A DNA stretch of 64,000 nucleotides, from positions 1 through 64,000 of the forward strand of contig CATEFX010000026.1 in assembly GCA_949499105.1 (NCBI GenBank), given 5' to 3'. The notes beneath the pieces are model-generated. The model did no database searches and was not told the DNA's origin. It saw only the letters and a list, made by a program, of their open reading frames with translations. Shown piece by piece: positions 3,845-11,424 of this stretch. The stretch comes from Formosa sp. Hel1_33_131. Its GTDB lineage: Bacteria > Bacteroidota > Bacteroidia > Flavobacteriales > Flavobacteriaceae. The translations under genes and the position numbers were made by a program. How positions within the stretch are numbered: position 1 is the first letter of the stretch; each line of letters starts with the position of its first letter.

Positions 3845-5098
3845 TTAAATGCCAAAAGCATCTTTAATCACATTCACATAATCCAGTTTTTCCCACGTAA
3901 ACAATTCAACATCTAAAGTTAAACTTTCGCCATTCGGTTGATGAAAAGTTTTAGTCACTGTCTTGTGTTCGCGACCCATATGTCCATAAGCAGCAGTTTC
4001 GCTATAAATTGGACTTCGGAGTTTTAATCGTTTTTCGATGGCTGCTGGTCGTAAATCAAATAATTTTGAGATATTATTTGCAATTTCACCATCTGTTAAA
4101 TTAAAAGGGCAGGTGCCATAAGTATCTATAAAGACACCCATCGGTTCTGCCACACCAATGGCATAACTCACTTGTACTAAAACTTCTGAGCAAATCCCAG
4201 CAGCAACCATATTTTTGGCAATATGACGGGTCGCATAGGCGGCACTACGGTCTACCTTACTAGGGTCTTTCCCAGAAAAAGCCCCACCACCATGAGCACC
4301 TTTACCGCCATAGGTATCCACGATAATTTTTCGTCCTGTAAGACCGGTGTCTCCGTGTGGTCCACCAATTACAAATTTACCGGTTGGATTGATATGATAG
4401 GTGATTTGATCATTAAATAATTCTTGAATCTGAGCAGGTAGTTTTGCTACCACTCTTGGTATTAATTTCGTTTTTAAATCTTCACGAATGGTAGCCAACA
4501 TAGCGGTTTCTTTGTCAAAATCATCATGTTGCGTAGAAATGACAATCGCATCAATACGTTTTGGCGTATTATCGTCATCGTATTCAATCGTAACCTGACT
4601 TTTAGAATCGGGTCTTATATAAGAAATTTCGGTGCCTTCGCGGCGCATGGCTGCTAATTCGATCAATATACGGTGTGATAGATCTAATGCCAACGGCATA
4701 TAGTTTTCGGTTTCATTGGTAGCATATCCAAACATCATTCCTTGATCGCCAGCGCCTTGTTCTTCTTCACTTCCTCTGTCCACACCTCTGTTGATATCTT
4801 CCGACTGCTCATGAATGGCAGAAAGAACGCCACAAGAATTGCCGTCAAACATATACTCCCCTTTGGTATATCCAATTTTATTGATAGTATCGCGTGCAAT
4901 TTTTTGCACATCCAAATACGTTTTTGATTTAACCTCTCCAGCTAAAAAAACTTGACCTGTTGTAACCAGTGTTTCACAGGCCACTTTTGAATCGGGGTCA
5001 AAGGCTAGAAAATGGTCGATTAGGGCGTCGCTAATTTGGTCTGCAACCTTGTCTGGATGGCCTTCTGAAACGCTTTCGGATGTAAATAAATAACTCAT
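3845..5098 (-). CDS. metK: S-adenosylmethionine synthetase
   Basis: Makes S-adenosylmethionine from methionine and ATP in the cytoplasm. 417 residues, slightly longer than the roughly 385-residue E. coli enzyme as is usual in Bacteroidota. Signature pieces are present: [15 protein letters not shown] at the N-terminus (ATP/Mg binding), [12 protein letters not shown] (methionine loop), [14 protein letters not shown] and [19 protein letters not shown]. The leader between 5099 and 5223 carries a SAM-II-type riboswitch, giving feedback by the product. Single-gene unit, convergent with the DMT-like gene. Confidence 0.98.
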
Positions 5099-5154
5099 AA
5101 ACAGTGTTTTATGAGAACAAAAATTGGATTGCAGAGCTGGTGGAGTAGTGTTTA

Positions 5155-5205
5155 CTGCTTTAGCTTTTTTTTAATGAGGTTGCAATCAGATCAAATTTGT
5201 CCTCC
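5155..5205 (-). promoter_or_regulatory. SAM-II riboswitch in the metK leader
   Basis: Read on the minus strand: GGAGG (5205-5201), then TTTGATCTGATTGCAA, then CCTC pairing with GAGG to close P1, then an A-rich stretch and GCTAAAGCAG. This follows the SAM-II layout (P1, loop with 'TTGCAA', A-rich joint, 'GCUAAA'). CTG in the loop (5189-5187) can pair with CAG after GCTAAAG (5157-5155), forming the expected pseudoknot. It sits about 56 bases before the metK ATG. High SAM should stabilise the fold and reduce metK expression. Confidence 0.82.
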
Positions 5206-5215
5206 AATGATGATG

Positions 5216-6409: not shown

Positions 6410-7156
6410 ATGAAACAATTATTTTATACACTCCTACTTTTAATGTTCTTTTCTTGTGATAAAGAAGACGCTTGGGACTGTATTCAAACCGCAGGTGCGC
6501 CGGTAGTTCAAGTTTTGAACGTGGAAGCTTTTGAGAGAATTTTAGTCAACCGAGATATTAAATTGGTGGTTAAACAAGGACACGATTATAAAGTAGAAAT
6601 TCAAACAGGGGAAAACTTGCTTGGTACTATTGAAGTCGTAGTGGTGGATCATGAACTCCAACTGTCCAACACCAACAGTTGTAATTACGTAAGAGATTTT
6701 GGGCTAACCAAAATGATCGTAACCACACCGGCTTTGAAAGGAATTAGAAGTAGTACACAATATTTAACGTCGTCGGAAGGGGTTTTGAATTTTGAAAGCC
6801 TGGCACTTGTCTCAGAGAATTTTAATTCGAATTACCTAAGTTCAGGCGATTTCAAGCTGACTATAGACACCCAAAGCCTCAGTGTCATTGCCAATAACCT
6901 TTCTTCATTTAACATTTCTGGAACGGTAGAAACGCTGACTATAGGCTTTTACGCGGGTTTGTGTGAATTTAAAGGCGCCGATTTAATAGCCCAGCACGTA
7001 AAAATATTCCAAAGAAGCAGTCACGATATTACCGTCAATCCGCAACAATCCTTAACAGTCGATATCCGAAGTGTCGGGGATGTCATCAGTGTTCAGAGGC
7101 CGCCCATCGTGGAACTTGAGCAATATTACACAGGTCAGTTGTTGTTTTTGGATTAA
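6410..7156 (+). CDS. DUF2807 (head-GIN type) lipoprotein
   Basis: Start set at the ATG at 6410 because it gives a lipoprotein signal: MKQLFYTLLLLMFFSC with lipobox Cys at residue 16; a longer reading would overlap the upstream gene. The mature part is repetitive beta: 'VEAFERILVNRDIKLVVKQG', 'LSNTNSC', 'SLSVIANNLSSFNISG', typical of the right-handed beta-helix DUF2807 domain seen in Bacteroidota cell-envelope proteins. 248 residues. No enzyme motif. Only one base follows the PagL-like gene, implying joint expression and an envelope role. Confidence 0.75.
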   Translation: MKQLFYTLLLLMFFSCDKEDAWDCIQTAGAPVVQVLNVEAFERILVNRDIKLVVKQGHDYKVEIQTGENLLGTIEVVVVDHELQLSNTNSCNYVRDFGLTKMIVTTPALKGIRSSTQYLTSSEGVLNFESLALVSENFNSNYLSSGDFKLTIDTQSLSVIANNLSSFNISGTVETLTIGFYAGLCEFKGADLIAQHVKIFQRSSHDITVNPQQSLTVDIRSVGDVISVQRPPIVELEQYYTGQLLFLD

Positions 7157-7378
7157 TCTAGATGCACTAAGCAGCACATTTAGAGCTTGTTCTAAGCCAA
7201 GTCGTGCAAAAAGCATCTAAATTAATTCGTGAAAAAAAGGACTTAAAAATATATTTTATCGATTATTGGCTACTTTTCATTGAATTATCTATAAATTTCC
7301 TACACAATGCATAAAAAAAAGAAATTAAGTTTTAATTTCTAAAAAATATATATACTTTAGCTTTTCAGTTAAACAACT
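7157..7378 (+). other. Leader upstream of the aromatic operon
   Basis: AT-rich, no gene. An inverted repeat AGAAATTAA/TTAATTTCT (7320-7340) may end the preceding operon or be part of the promoter region. TACTTTAG (7353-7360) is one mismatch from TAnnTTTG and is the best candidate -7 for the leader-peptide transcript; no convincing -33 element. Confidence 0.4.
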
Positions 7379-7456
7379 ATGACCACAGTTAATTACATTT
7401 TTTATAGCTTTTACTATTTCTTTTTTAGAAAAAAGAACGAGACGCTGTGTATGTAA
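7379..7456 (+). CDS. Phe/Tyr-rich leader peptide of the pheA operon
   Basis: ATG at 7379 opens a 25-codon frame ending TAA 7454-7456. Residues 6-16 read YIFYSFYYFFF: five Phe and four Tyr in eleven codons, after which come RKKNETLCM. Such a run has no ordinary protein role but is what a ribosome-mediated attenuator uses to sense charged tRNA-Phe and tRNA-Tyr. It is followed by competing hairpins (7438-7503) and then directly by pheA, whose products are Phe and Tyr precursors. Too short for routine gene finding. The peptide itself is probably without function; its translation is the signal. Confidence 0.88.
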   Translation: MTTVNYIFYSFYYFFFRKKNETLCM

Positions 7457-7512
7457 TTTATCAATATAAATTTTAAATATAAGTCTCGATGTAAACATCG
7501 GGATTTTTTTTT
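7438..7512 (+). terminator. Attenuator: antiterminator and terminator before pheA
   Basis: Terminator: TCTCGATG (7484-7491) pairs with CATCGGGA (7496-7503) around a TAAA loop, followed by nine T (7504-7512) that run straight into the pheA ATG. Antiterminator: CGAGAC (7438-7443, inside the end of the leader peptide) is the exact complement of GTCTCG (7483-7488), which is the left arm of the terminator, so the two exclude each other. Between them AATTTAT/ATAAATT (7455-7472) makes a small hairpin that brings the arms together. A ribosome stalled on Phe/Tyr codons would leave 7438-7443 free (readthrough); one that reaches the stop codon covers it (termination). Confidence 0.85.
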
Positions 7513-8340
7513 ATGACAAAAAAAGTAGCCATACAAGGAATTGAAGGATCATTTCATCACATCGTTTCTCAAACGTATTTTGAGGAAGCTGTGGAAGTGC
7601 AACCCTATCTTTCATTTAGTGAAGTGGTCGATAGCTTGTTGTCCAAGACCTCAGATATTGCTGTGATGGCATTAGAGAATTCAATTGCAGGGTCTATCAT
7701 TCCAAACTATGCGCATATCAATGATCAAGATTTGCACATTACAGGCGAATATTTTTTAGAGATTCAACATAATTTGATGGCGCTAAAAGGCCAGTCGATA
7801 GAAGATATCAAAGAAGTTTTTTCACATCCAATGGCATTATTACAATGCAAAGATTTTTTTAAACAGTATCCACATATAAAATTAATTGAAGACACGGATA
7901 CTGCGGAGGTTGCGAAACGAATTTCAAAATATCAGTTTCAAGGAATTGCAGCGATTGCAAGTTTGGAGGCCGCTAATATTTTTGATTTAGAGATTTTGGC
8001 CAAAAGTATTCAAACCATCAAGCATAACGAAACTCGATTTGTGATTGTCGAAAGAGATCCAATTTTACAAAATGTAGAAAACATTAGTAAAGCTTCTGTA
8101 AAATTTCTTTTAGATCACAAACGTGGAAGTTTAGCTGCCATGCTTAACGTGATGAGTGATTGTAATTTAAATTTAACAAAAATACAATCGTTACCAAAAA
8201 TTGACACCCCTTGGAAATATGCTTTTTTTGTAGACATTACATTTGAGGACTACTCCGATTACGAAAAAGGGAAAGCCATTATGAAAATCATGGCTGAAGA
8301 ATTTAAAATTTTAGGAGAATATAAAAACGCCAAAAAATAA
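7513..8340 (+). CDS. pheA: Prephenate dehydratase
   Basis: Converts prephenate to phenylpyruvate, the committed step to phenylalanine. 275 residues: periplasmic-binding-like PDT domain (residues 1-180; IQGIEGSFHH near the start, ALENSIAGSI, and the catalytic HNETRF at about 175-180) and a C-terminal ACT domain (residues 195-270; KRGSLAAML corresponds to the Phe-binding GALV region and KIQSLP to ESRP). Monofunctional: no chorismate mutase, which here is fused to the DAHP synthase. First structural gene of the attenuated operon; its start touches the terminator U-tract and it has no Shine-Dalgarno site. Its stop overlaps the next start (TAATG). Confidence 0.96.
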   Translation: MTKKVAIQGIEGSFHHIVSQTYFEEAVEVQPYLSFSEVVDSLLSKTSDIAVMALENSIAGSIIPNYAHINDQDLHITGEYFLEIQHNLMALKGQSIEDIKEVFSHPMALLQCKDFFKQYPHIKLIEDTDTAEVAKRISKYQFQGIAAIASLEAANIFDLEILAKSIQTIKHNETRFVIVERDPILQNVENISKASVKFLLDHKRGSLAAMLNVMSDCNLNLTKIQSLPKIDTPWKYAFFVDITFEDYSDYEKGKAIMKIMAEEFKILGEYKNAKK

Positions 8341-9482
8341 TGGTCACTGCCAATCGATTACATACCGTTGAAGAATACTACTTTTCTAAGAAATTAAGGG
8401 AAGTCAATGCGCTCAAAGCTGCAGGCGCCCCGATCATTAATTTAGGAATTGGCAGTCCAGATTTGGCACCACCAAAGGCCGTTATTTCTGCCATTACCGA
8501 AAGCCTCACAGACCCCACAGCACATAAATATCAAAGTTACCAAGGGCTGCCAGCATTGCGGGAAGCCATGGCCAAATTTTACCAAACACATTACAAGGTC
8601 GCTCTGAATCCCGAAAACGAAGTTTTACCTCTTATTGGAAGTAAAGAAGGGATTATGCACATTTCAATGGCGTATCTCAATGAAGGCGATGCCGTGTTAA
8701 TCCCGAATCCAGGATATCCAACCTACACTTCAGTGACTAAATTAGTGGGAGCGACGCCTGTTTTTTATGATTTAAAAGCAAGTTCTAATTGGCAGCCAGA
8801 TTTAGCAGCTCTTGAAGAAATGGATGTCTCTAAGGTTAAAATAATGTGGGTCAATTATCCACACATGCCTACTGGAACCCTAGCAGATCAAAAGGTGTTA
8901 AAAGCATTGGTTGATTTTGCAAAAAAACATGCTATTTTACTCATTAATGACAATCCCTATAGTTTCATTCTAAATGATCAACCGTCTAGTATTTTCAATA
9001 TTGAAGGCGCAAAAGAGGTGTGTTTAGAGCTGAATTCTTTAAGCAAAACCTTCAATATGGCTGGATGGCGTGTTGGCATGTTGACGGGATCAGCAGGGCA
9101 TTTAAACAACGTTATTAAAGTGAAAAGCAATATGGACTCAGGAATGTTTTACGGCATTCAAAAAGGGGCGATTGAAGCTTTAAATAGTTCAAAAAACTGG
9201 TTTAACGACCTAAATAAAATCTATACAGAACGTCGAGAACTGGTTTGGAAATTAGCCACTGCTCTCAACTGTACGTTTGAAACCAATACTTCAGGAATGT
9301 TTGTATGGGCCAAACTACCTACAGGCCTGAGTTCGGAAGTCTTTATTGATCAAATATTACAAGAGCATCATATATTTATTGCGCCAGGAACCATCTTTGG
9401 CAGCAATGGTGAAGGTTACATTCGGTTTTCATTATGTGCCCCAAAAGAAAGTATTCAATCTGCAATAAATCGAGTCTTATGA
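8340..9482 (+). CDS. PLP-dependent class I/II aminotransferase (aromatic pathway)
   Basis: 380 residues, fold-type I aminotransferase: GIGSPDLAPP near residue 38, NPGYPTY at about 125, WVNYPHMPTG, NDNPYSF, and NSLSKTFNMAGWRVGM with the PLP-binding Lys near residue 236. A member of the AspC/DapL-like group. In this operon, between pheA and tyrA, it most likely does the last transamination of phenylpyruvate and hydroxyphenylpyruvate; substrate is inferred from context. Overlaps pheA by one base and tyrA by four (ATGA). Confidence 0.9.
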   Translation: MVTANRLHTVEEYYFSKKLREVNALKAAGAPIINLGIGSPDLAPPKAVISAITESLTDPTAHKYQSYQGLPALREAMAKFYQTHYKVALNPENEVLPLIGSKEGIMHISMAYLNEGDAVLIPNPGYPTYTSVTKLVGATPVFYDLKASSNWQPDLAALEEMDVSKVKIMWVNYPHMPTGTLADQKVLKALVDFAKKHAILLINDNPYSFILNDQPSSIFNIEGAKEVCLELNSLSKTFNMAGWRVGMLTGSAGHLNNVIKVKSNMDSGMFYGIQKGAIEALNSSKNWFNDLNKIYTERRELVWKLATALNCTFETNTSGMFVWAKLPTGLSSEVFIDQILQEHHIFIAPGTIFGSNGEGYIRFSLCAPKESIQSAINRVL

Positions 9483-10330
9483 AACAGGTATGTATCATAG
9501 GGGTTGGGTTAATTGGCGGCAGTTTTGCGTTAGATTTAAAGCAATACATAAATGGGGTTCGTGTGTTAGGAATCGATCAAAATGAAGCACACTTAACAGA
9601 CGCATTAGCATTAGGTATTATTGATCAAATAGGCACATTTGATCGCCTGATGGATGCTGACCTCGTCGTGTTGGCAATCCCTGTAAACGCAGCGATTAAG
9701 GTCTTGCCGCAAGTTTTGGAGTTGATAGCGGACCACACAATCGTCATAGACATGGGATCAACCAAAGAAGCGATTTGTGAGGTTGTATCCTCACACCCAA
9801 GACGTGCTCAATTTTTAGCAACCCATCCCATTGCAGGAACTGAATTTTCGGGGCCTTCTGCAGCGATTACAGGACTTTTTAAAAACAAAACAAACATTAT
9901 CTGCGAACTAGATAAAACTTCAGTTGCTTTGGGTGAACCCGTTTTAGAGCTTTTCAAAACACTGGGAATGCACCTTCGTTTTATGCCTGCCAAAGACCAT
10001 GATAAACACATTGCATATGTGTCTCATTTATCACATATCAGTTCTTTTATGTTGGGAAAAACGGTGATTGAGAAAGAAAAAAACGAACGTGATATTTTTG
10101 ATATGGCTGGCAGTGGGTTCGAATCTACGGTTCGATTGGCCAAAAGTTCACCTGCCATGTGGACCCCTATTTTTGAACAAAATAAAGCCAATGTCATCGA
10201 AACACTTACCGAGTATATTCAAAATTTAAATCAATTTAAATCCTATATGGAAAACGATGATTTTGAAGCGGTCTATAATGAAATGAAAAACACAAATCAT
10301 ATAAAACAAATATTAAAAGGAATTGCTTAA
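9479..10330 (+). CDS. tyrA: Prephenate dehydrogenase
   Basis: Oxidises prephenate to 4-hydroxyphenylpyruvate with NAD(P), the branch to tyrosine. 283 residues. Start placed at the ATG at 9479, because it yields MKQVCIIGVGLIGGS, a Rossmann GxGxxG motif beginning where family members begin, and because the start overlaps the previous stop as ATGA; an upstream in-frame start would only add residues read from inside the aminotransferase gene. Further motifs: DMGSTK, THPIAGTEFSGP, and the helical C-terminal dimerisation part with HLSHISSFML. No fused mutase or ACT domain. Confidence 0.95.
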   Translation: MKQVCIIGVGLIGGSFALDLKQYINGVRVLGIDQNEAHLTDALALGIIDQIGTFDRLMDADLVVLAIPVNAAIKVLPQVLELIADHTIVIDMGSTKEAICEVVSSHPRRAQFLATHPIAGTEFSGPSAAITGLFKNKTNIICELDKTSVALGEPVLELFKTLGMHLRFMPAKDHDKHIAYVSHLSHISSFMLGKTVIEKEKNERDIFDMAGSGFESTVRLAKSSPAMWTPIFEQNKANVIETLTEYIQNLNQFKSYMENDDFEAVYNEMKNTNHIKQILKGIA

Positions 10331-10341
10331 AAAAAGAAACA

Positions 10342-11424
10342 ATGGAAAACAAAAAAGAACTTAGAAACTGGTTAAACGACTTAAACCTAGACCACCCTTT
10401 AGTGATCGCTGGGCCATGTAGTGCAGAAACAGAAGAACAAGTGTTAAGAATTGCACATGAACTGAAAGACACGGATGTTAATTATTACCGTGCAGGAATT
10501 TGGAAACCACGAACCCGTCCAGGAAATTTTGAAGGCGTTGGGGCATTAGGCTTAAAATGGCTTCAAAAAGTAAAAGCGGAGACCGGTTTAAAAACAGCGA
10601 CCGAAGTTGCCAACAGAGCTCACGTTGAATTGGCTTTGGAACATGACATCGATTTACTTTGGATTGGCGCACGTTCGACCGTGAGTCCATTTATTGTGCA
10701 AGAAATTGCAGATGCCTTACAAGGCACTGATAAAATTGTGTTGGTTAAAAACCCAGTGAATCCAGATTTGGCATTGTGGTTAGGTGCAATTGAGCGTTTG
10801 GCAACAGCAGATATCAAAAACTTAGGAGTGATTCACAGAGGGTTTTCATCGTATGAAAAAACAAAATATAGAAACACACCAGAATGGCAAATGGCGATTG
10901 AGCTTCAAACCAGGTTTCCAGACCTTCCATTAATCAATGATCCATCTCATATTACTGGAAAACGCGATATGATTTTTGAGGTCTCTCAAACAGCCTTAGA
11001 CTTGAATTTTGATGGCCTTATGATTGAAACGCATCACGATCCTGATAATGCATGGAGTGATGCTGCACAACAAGTAACGCCTGCCTCATTGATTCAAATC
11101 ATGAAAGATTTAAAAATCAGAAAAGAATCGACTCCAGAAGCTGACTATAACGACAAACTTCAAAATTTACGTACACAAATAGATGTCATGGACAATCAAT
11201 TGCTCGAAACAATCGGGAAGCGAATGAAGGTTTCCGAAGGGATTGGAGCTCTTAAAAAACAGAAAAATGTTGCTGTTTTACAAAGCAAACGTTGGAATGA
11301 AATTTTAGGAAAAATGGTTTTAGAAGGAGAGCAGCATAATTTGAGTGAAGAGTTTATCCTCAAATTATTTAAAGCGGTTCACCAAGAATCCATTAATCAT
11401 CAAGAATTGATCTTGAATAAATAA
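10342..11424 (+). CDS. aroF: Bifunctional DAHP synthase / chorismate mutase
   Basis: Residues 1-260 are a 3-deoxy-7-phosphoheptulonate synthase (type I-beta like; AGPCSAET, YRAGIWKPRTRPG, KNPVNPD, GVIHRGF, NDPSHITGKR, GLMIETHHDPDNAWSD), which opens the shikimate pathway from PEP and erythrose-4-phosphate. Residues 270-360 are an AroQ-type chorismate mutase (LRTQIDVMDNQLLETIGKRM..VSEGIGALK). The fusion is well known in Bacteroidota and links the first and the branch-point step. Last gene of the attenuated operon, so Phe/Tyr starvation would raise both ends of the pathway. Followed by a long hairpin repeat. Confidence 0.93.
   Translation: MENKKELRNWLNDLNLDHPLVIAGPCSAETEEQVLRIAHELKDTDVNYYRAGIWKPRTRPGNFEGVGALGLKWLQKVKAETGLKTATEVANRAHVELALEHDIDLLWIGARSTVSPFIVQEIADALQGTDKIVLVKNPVNPDLALWLGAIERLATADIKNLGVIHRGFSSYEKTKYRNTPEWQMAIELQTRFPDLPLINDPSHITGKRDMIFEVSQTALDLNFDGLMIETHHDPDNAWSDAAQQVTPASLIQIMKDLKIRKESTPEADYNDKLQNLRTQIDVMDNQLLETIGKRMKVSEGIGALKKQKNVAVLQSKRWNEILGKMVLEGEQHNLSEEFILKLFKAVHQESINHQELILNK

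Follow-up and report, generated by a model that had tools for sequence, protein, structure and literature searches.

The window, i.e. the whole stretch of 64,000 nucleotides that was analyzed, belongs to a genome of 2.1 Mb, present in 66 contigs and 86.6% complete. On its forward strand it carries an operon of four genes, reported here with the protein models that they match:

7513 to 8340, + strand: pheA, prephenate dehydratase (PF00800, 185.2 bits)
8340 to 9482, + strand: class I/II aminotransferase (PF00155, 220.3 bits)
9434 to 10330, + strand: tyrA, prephenate dehydrogenase (PF02153 and PF20463; NF006307, 384.5 bits over 295); its start may be a later in-frame ATG, at 9479
10342 to 11424, + strand: bifunctional DAHP synthase/chorismate mutase (PF00793 and PF01817; scoring below the NCBIfam cut-offs for DAHP synthase)

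Within this 86.6% complete genome, the operon seems to hold the sole DAHP synthase found, since the other PF00793 (DAHP_synth_1) match is a KDO8P synthase (364.1 bits over 242) and the class II enzyme (PF01474) is absent from all of the 40 genomes searched. Elsewhere in the window, at 5150 to 5210 on the reverse strand, a SAM-II long-loop riboswitch (RF01726, 61.4 bits) lies just upstream of an ORF at 3845 to 5098 (- strand), which, named from its own sequence, reads as S-adenosylmethionine synthetase.

Upstream of pheA, the closest ORF of at least 80 codons ends at 7156. Between this point and pheA the following elements are found; percentages of paired cells, where reported, refer to an alignment of 79 Flavobacteriaceae leaders (A1):

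7330 to 7361, + strand: likely promoter of the leader (predicted), with a -33-like element, TTTTAATTT, at 7330 to 7338 and a -7-like element, TACTTTAGC, at 7353 to 7361; conserved in near relatives
7379 to 7456, + strand: leader peptide ORF, MTTVNYIFYSFYYFFFRKKNETLCM, 25 codons from the ATG at 7379 to the TAA stop at 7454 to 7456; homologous leaders precede pheA in relatives
7391 to 7398, + strand: protector strand 1, AATTACAT, pairing with 7451 to 7458 (85.6% of cells paired; changes on both sides in 4 of 8 pairs)
7394 to 7426, + strand: control codons, Y I F Y S F Y Y F F F, with 9 Phe/Tyr among 11 (5 Phe, 4 Tyr)
7418 to 7437, + strand: inner protector hairpin (7418 to 7425 with 7430 to 7437), joining Phe codons with A-rich codons in minimum-energy folds
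7438 to 7443, + strand: antiterminator 5' strand (strand 2), CGAGAC; 97.5% of cells paired with strand 3 in the 79 sequences, and the subject of the swap test described below
7451 to 7458, + strand: protector strand 1', ATGTAATT, spanning the last sense codon and the stop, joined to strand 1 in the fold without ribosome
7455 to 7472, + strand: candidate small AU hairpin within the antiterminator (7455 to 7461 with 7466 to 7472); 82.0% of cells paired, a value not above shuffles
7481 to 7506, + strand: intrinsic terminator hairpin, with the core 7484 to 7491 paired with 7496 to 7503 and the loop TAAA
7483 to 7488, + strand: antiterminator 3' strand, which is also the terminator 5' arm (strand 3), GTCTCG; all six columns invariant in the 79 sequences; strand 2 and the terminator 3' arm are its alternative partners
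7504 to 7512, + strand: U9 tract, ending at the pheA start codon (ATG 7513)

A direct read of the control codons (TAC ATT TTT TAT AGC TTT TAC TAT TTC TTT TTT) verified every coordinate of the 25-codon, Phe/Tyr-rich frame reported in the initial annotation. The same holds for the two mutually exclusive helices described there: the CGAGAC of strand 2 is the exact complement of the GTCTCG of strand 3 (6 bp), while the terminator core counts 8 bp, or 11 when the A-U pairs into the U-tract are included, and the nine T do reach the pheA ATG. A scan of 7100 to 7600 found one terminator-like site, against 0.2 expected from shuffles, and the fold of the leader is better than that of 197 of 200 shuffled sequences. 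The earlier inventory of hairpins was correct for antiterminator and terminator, while it overlooked the conserved stem 7391-7398:7451-7458. This stem links the beginning of the control-codon run with the final sense codon and its stop and is likely, on sequence grounds, to be the protector (1:2 type).

When A1 was analyzed by RNAalifold, the predicted structure contained the terminator and a hairpin joining the Phe-codon run to a stretch that includes strand 2. The structure composed of that hairpin, the terminator and the stem 7391-7398:7451-7458 is paired in 92.6% of cells, against 40-56% for slid versions. In it, 9 pairs are changed on both sides versus 5.4 in shuffles, which ignore relatedness; none of 500 shuffles reaches this number. 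A consensus helix related to the inner hairpin takes in part of strand 2 (97.3% of cells paired). In the protector stem, the best pairs vary as UA/UG/CG and CG/UA, partly along the lineage of the window itself. The structure made of the antiterminator and the AU hairpin, tested on the same 79 sequences, is not above column shuffles, though the AU hairpin is conserved. Synonymous recoding of the window leader kept the protector stem in 1536 of 2000 cases and the 6-bp antiterminator in 462 of 2000: the encoded peptide thus accounts for part of both.

The promoter is predicted from near relatives. In 77 of 80 of them with a scored leader, TTAGC is present in the 60 nt that precede the leader start (exact TACTTTAGC in 58 of the 77), and in 75 of the 77 its end sits 8-19 nt 5' of the leader ATG. 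The consensus reads aTTTTGaTTT..tTACTTTAGC, with a TTTTGATTT-like box further up. In 57 of the 77, TTG precedes the -7-like element by 16-22 nt, the window itself having TTTTAA there. Bacteroidota promoters are of the form TTTG / TAnnTTTG, which the boxes of the leader resemble; their position would leave a 5' UTR of only about 4-14 nt. Shine-Dalgarno sites are rarely used in Bacteroidota.

To follow the leader in other genomes, pheA loci were collected as the 80 best PheA matches from genome contigs (L002-L081) and 30 from whole genomes, a set where near relatives dominate. A detector was applied, which requires an aromatic ORF, a terminator and an antiterminator of at least 5 Watson-Crick pairs. 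Of 227 distinct pheA upstream regions, 144 show this full architecture, against none of 2270 dinucleotide shuffles and one of 227 reverse strands. The sampling of the 227 was not random: loci L002-L098 supply 79 of the 144 positives. Aromatic ORFs alone do arise in shuffles (153 of 2270), so that the weight is carried by the combination and by its conservation. Some visible cases are missed by the detector, either because the terminator is not scored (L158, L080) or because only five aromatic residues are present (L104, L128), and a few regions, L022 among them, are cut by contig ends. Nearly all the Flavobacteriaceae pheA loci examined are preceded by an aromatic leader and a terminator. The aminotransferase is the next gene after pheA in 114 of 125 leader-bearing loci with at least 1400 nt downstream of pheA.

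A covariance model built from A1, indicated as R1, has matches at E 0.01 in 110 of 149 family genomes, counted per genome and irrespective of the position of pheA. In the genome of the window it finds the leader at 3.4e-17, the next best match being at 0.006, and none of the six weaker matches contains an aromatic leader. Two of the six (L249 and L250) are terminators 3' of ORFs, whose start we take to be that of elongation factor Ts, and L252 is a terminator after a RecA-like ORF; L254 is the opposite strand of the L249 site, L251 a terminator-like hairpin, and at L253 nothing is evident.

A wider survey for PheA took in 118 genomes of the order, of which 69 had a match, 149 genomes of the class, with 41 matching, and 198 genomes of the phylum, with 172 matching. 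Nine of the 69 order genomes, all from family f16, were left out; the 41 from the class were all examined, and from the 172 of the phylum a part was hand-picked, spanning the families. Counts by family were made on 145 regions, excluding loci L002-L098, and are fairer than the count on 227. They follow a strict rule, requiring at least 6 aromatic residues in 10 codons, a terminator and at least 5 Watson-Crick antiterminator pairs; one region, L191, passes the strict rule in one count and fails in the count by family, where a looser first step picks another ORF. Within the order, 33 of 65 regions and 5 of 8 families are positive (f1 26/26, f2 2/2, f3 1/1, f9 3/3, f15 1/3), the three without a strict leader being f5 (0/19), f12 (0/1) and f16 (0/10). 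In the other orders of the class, 29 of 47 regions and 12 of 20 families are positive; in other classes of the phylum, 3 of 33 regions. Relaxed rules bring the numbers to 35 of 65, 34 of 47 and 4 of 33, respectively, where the few cases with five aromatic residues may be due to chance. A lack of conservation in relatives, named in the initial annotation as refuting it, was not what the comparison showed: both the hairpins and the aromatic run recur throughout the genus and the family, and in many other families of the class.

The distribution has gaps. PheA from family f5 is divergent (27-33% identical). Family f16 is characterized by 600-kb genomes, a size which suggests endosymbionts; at its loci (L133-L136, L163-L165, L193-L195) the aromatic leader is absent in 10 of 10, and in L133-L136 the aminotransferase is still next after pheA. 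Leaders are also absent in f27 (0/5) and in genus g124 of f30 (0/3), though pheA and aminotransferase stay together. Genomes which keep the start of the operon without the leader, as in f16 and f27, are a counterpoint to its interpretation as an attenuator. At the other end of the distribution, the positives from other classes (L202, L214, L224 and, by the relaxed rule, L223) have PheA 40-43% identical to that of the window, while family mates, examined for three of the four (f83, f86, f101), feature PheA 33-38% identical and no leader. This difference suggests that operon and leader were transferred together, or that a binning error occurred.

The position of the terminator relative to pheA bears on the level at which the leader may act. 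The U-run abuts the pheA start in 34 of the 144 leaders, ends 1-9 nt before it in 32 and at least 10 nt before it in 78: the merger seen in the window is therefore not general. A leader acting mainly on translation, with termination secondary, could either hide the abutting pheA start in the hairpin or let leader ribosomes reinitiate at pheA. The 34 abutting cases are compatible with the former, and reinitiation downstream of leader ORFs has been suggested for several groups, Bacteroidetes included (PMC4833913). Both versions are improbable. In the 78 leaders with a distance of at least 10 nt, hairpin, U-run and antiterminator are kept all the same, and in the window the leader stop lies 56 nt from pheA, beyond the 11-14 bp peak reported for Bacteroidetes in the same paper.

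The leader ORF is probably translated. In A1, all of the 62 gap runs inside the ORF are of 3 or 6 nt, in contrast with those 3' of the stop, where 268 of 390 are of 1, 2, 4 or 5 nt; gaps in multiples of three are the mark of a translated frame. Several A1 columns maintain the aromatic class, while swapping the residue: Y57 F20 in column 25, Y48 F26 in column 28, W50 F24 in column 37, F44 Y29 in column 40. Trp is absent from the 16 aligned leaders of the genus of the window and present in 50 of the 63 from other genera, as it is in 72 of the 144 leaders scored in the wider pheA set; its absence in the genus, along with its frequency outside, indicates a leader family sensing aromatics in general. 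In column 37, the 16 leaders of the genus feature Phe, where other genera have Trp (50 of 63). The sensing of two amino acids, to which the initial annotation had drawn attention, is borne out as far as the presence of both Phe and Tyr codons is concerned, but not as an unusual trait, as those same 50 leaders from other genera also add Trp. Attenuators sensing more than one amino acid are not unusual in themselves.

The same residues bear on an arrest of the TnaC type, where the nascent peptide itself, still within the ribosome, would sense the free amino acid. In Flavobacteriaceae, Y-F-F-F is a strongly conserved part of the leader, as might be expected of an arrest peptide. Such peptides need specific residues, whereas F, Y and W interchange at several positions of the leader and, between families, little more than aromatic density is common; this possibility is even more improbable than translational control. 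An ordinary gene-end terminator, accompanied by a chance ORF in AT-rich DNA, would fit the fact that aromatic ORFs alone do arise in shuffles, but hardly deserves consideration, as the nearest upstream ORF of at least 80 codons ends far back and the full combination, never seen in shuffles, is recurrent across families.

The pairing of the alternative strands is also maintained between genera, where strands 2, 3 and 4 change in concert: CGAGAC/GTCTCG, CGGGAC/GTCCCG, GGATTG/CAATCC, GAGCGGTC/GACCGCTC, GAGGCT/AGCCTC and GCGGGA/TCCCGC are found for strands 2 and 3. In a swap test, 41 representatives, hand-picked from the positives with one or few per genus, gave a mean helix score of 11.76 with their own partner, of 8.08 when swapped and of 7.07 when the strand-2 regions were shuffled; none of 20000 permutations reached the mean of the own pairs. 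The own leader beats every swapped partner in just 7 of the 41, because, we think, many of them share a GTCCCG core. When leaders were recoded synonymously, the mean antiterminator score fell from 10.74 to 7.23; in 940 of 5760 recodings the score equalled or exceeded the own value. Within the 79 Flavobacteriaceae sequences, where strand 3 is invariant, antiterminator changes are all on the strand-2 side, as expected when one strand has two partners.

Distances within the leader are conserved as well. In the 144 leaders, a median of 11 nt (quartiles 9-11) separates the last aromatic codon from the start of strand 2, a spacing that would put strand 2 directly in front of a ribosome halted there. 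An occlusion model was built with an assumed footprint, extending 18 nt upstream and 12 nt downstream of the first A-site base, and with RNA emerged to 7490. In this model, the antiterminator has a probability of 1.0 whichever codon from 7394 to 7424 occupies the A site, of 0.62 at 7427 and of 0 from 7430. With downstream footprints from +9 to +15, the antiterminator is lost between codons 7424 and 7433; at +15, the loss starts on the last Phe codon. Without ribosome, the modelled RNA forms first the protector (RNA to 7475), then the antiterminator, at 7490, and finally, at full length, the terminator. The equilibrium fold of the full-length RNA contains the terminator with probability 0.81-0.99 when the ribosome is on the control codons, and 1.0 past them; modelled energies are -6.9 for the antiterminator (-10.2 with the inner hairpin) and -12.4 for the terminator. 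Since the terminator is preferred at full length even with a stalled ribosome, antitermination would have to be kinetic: the antiterminator would need to hold until the polymerase clears the U-tract. For the E. coli trp attenuator, two conformations of similar stability are reported in PMC1183508, along with a ribosome leaving the stop codon in about 1 s.

The locus contains the parts of an amino-acid attenuator: a short leader ORF rich in codons for the products of the operon, conserved in relatives; an intrinsic terminator between this ORF and the first gene; an antiterminator sharing a strand with the terminator; and, by computation, a choice between the helices decided by the position of the ribosome on the control codons. 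From these we infer where transcription starts, that the leader is translated, that ribosomes stall on it and transcription terminates, and in which direction the system responds. RNA polymerase would start a short distance 5' of the leader ORF. Under a shortage of Phe- or Tyr-tRNA, the leading ribosome would stall in codons 7394-7426, leaving the protector region open and strand 2 free just ahead; strand 2 would then pair with strand 3 before the 3' arm of the terminator emerges, and transcription would proceed into pheA. With Phe and Tyr both plentiful, the ribosome would advance and cover strand 2, strand 3 would pair with 7496-7503, and transcription would stop in U9. Anatomy, conservation, co-variation of the strands, modelled geometry and gene context all point the same way as the initial annotation, which had proposed a Phe/Tyr ribosome-mediated attenuator of the aromatic operon. 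In all likelihood, the leader controls the pheA-aminotransferase-tyrA-DAHP synthase operon by ribosome-mediated transcription attenuation.

Among the closest known systems are the pheA (pheL) and trp attenuators of enterobacteria, where control codons in a leader ORF and alternative helices respond to the charging of the cognate tRNA. The leader of the window would share with them the control-codon ORF, the antiterminator and terminator alternatives, along with a likely protector, the kind of operon and the dependence on cognate tRNA charging. It differs in mixing Phe and Tyr, with Trp in many relatives, where the enterobacterial leaders rely on one amino acid; in the location of strand 2 inside the ORF, 11 nt after the run; in the very short predicted 5' UTR; and in the lack of any Rfam leader match. 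Among the 4227 families of Rfam 15, which include riboswitches, T-boxes and known leaders, none matches the leader at the gathering score, the best below threshold being PyrR (26.2 bits, E 0.11). No match was found in 20 loci of relatives either, RF01692 included.

RF01692, the Bacteroid-trp RNA, is a sister attenuator and also a Bacteroidetes element, distinguished by a run of Trp only, by a different sequence and by a different gene, and not matched by the pheA leader. Of 40 genomes searched, 22 have a match to it at E 0.001, with the cut-off reached in 9. The genome of the window (G000) features an RF01692-like sequence (L287) at C33:12568-12684 on the reverse strand, scoring 45.2 bits (cut-off 49) and encoding MNQSLNNTWWWCSRKKKS (WWW). 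The U-tract of its terminator also runs into the next ATG, so that the merger of U-tract and start codon, initially regarded as unusual for the pheA leader, is common to two attenuators of the same genome. The long ORF that follows is presumably an anthranilate synthase, judging from its start. Bacteroid-trp is listed for Bacteroidetes in Table 1 of PMC2864571.

Literature on the pheA leader itself is close in one case. In Flavobacterium psychrophilum a structured element is reported 5' of pheA, present also in other Flavobacteriaceae genera and without Rfam hits (PMC9723704, 2021); a separate sentence of the same paper mentions strong indications of leader-peptide attenuators 5' of operons for amino acids. 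This is very probably the same element as the leader described here; in the section concerned, it is not called a leader-peptide attenuator, and neither anatomy, nor control codons, nor a reach beyond the family is given. Two candidate uORFs with Phe and Tyr, tied to shikimate genes, come from a five-genome study (PMC6429828, 2019), whose passages share these amino acids and genes with our case and contain no link to Bacteroidota. Bacteroides sORFs reminiscent of attenuation leaders are noted in PMC7366714; in Actinobacteria, no conserved RNA structure was observed 5' of operons for phenylalanine or tyrosine (PMC1262725). Among the matches listed from open-licence literature, none describes a Bacteroidota pheA leader peptide. 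This kind of switch is old, and the element itself has very probably been noticed already, in one family. As far as the literature was searched, there is no description of its anatomy, its control logic, its Trp content or its spread through the class.

Outside the Proteobacteria, Firmicutes and Actinobacteria, the pheA leader enlarges the set of known attenuators by a widespread family that is absent from Rfam. The charging levels of two or three tRNAs may be averaged in its single control region. We would also suggest, tentatively and with somewhat less than even confidence, that the leader is an ancient aromatic sensor of the class, reading the charging of Phe, Tyr and often Trp tRNAs in one region, gating the only DAHP synthase, and with it the entry to the shikimate pathway, in place of dedicated repressors, and sometimes moved with its operon to other classes. 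Attenuation by such a leader would imply that, in Bacteroidota, transcription and translation are coupled closely enough for the leading ribosome to control the polymerase, a question for which the leader would provide a ready reporter.
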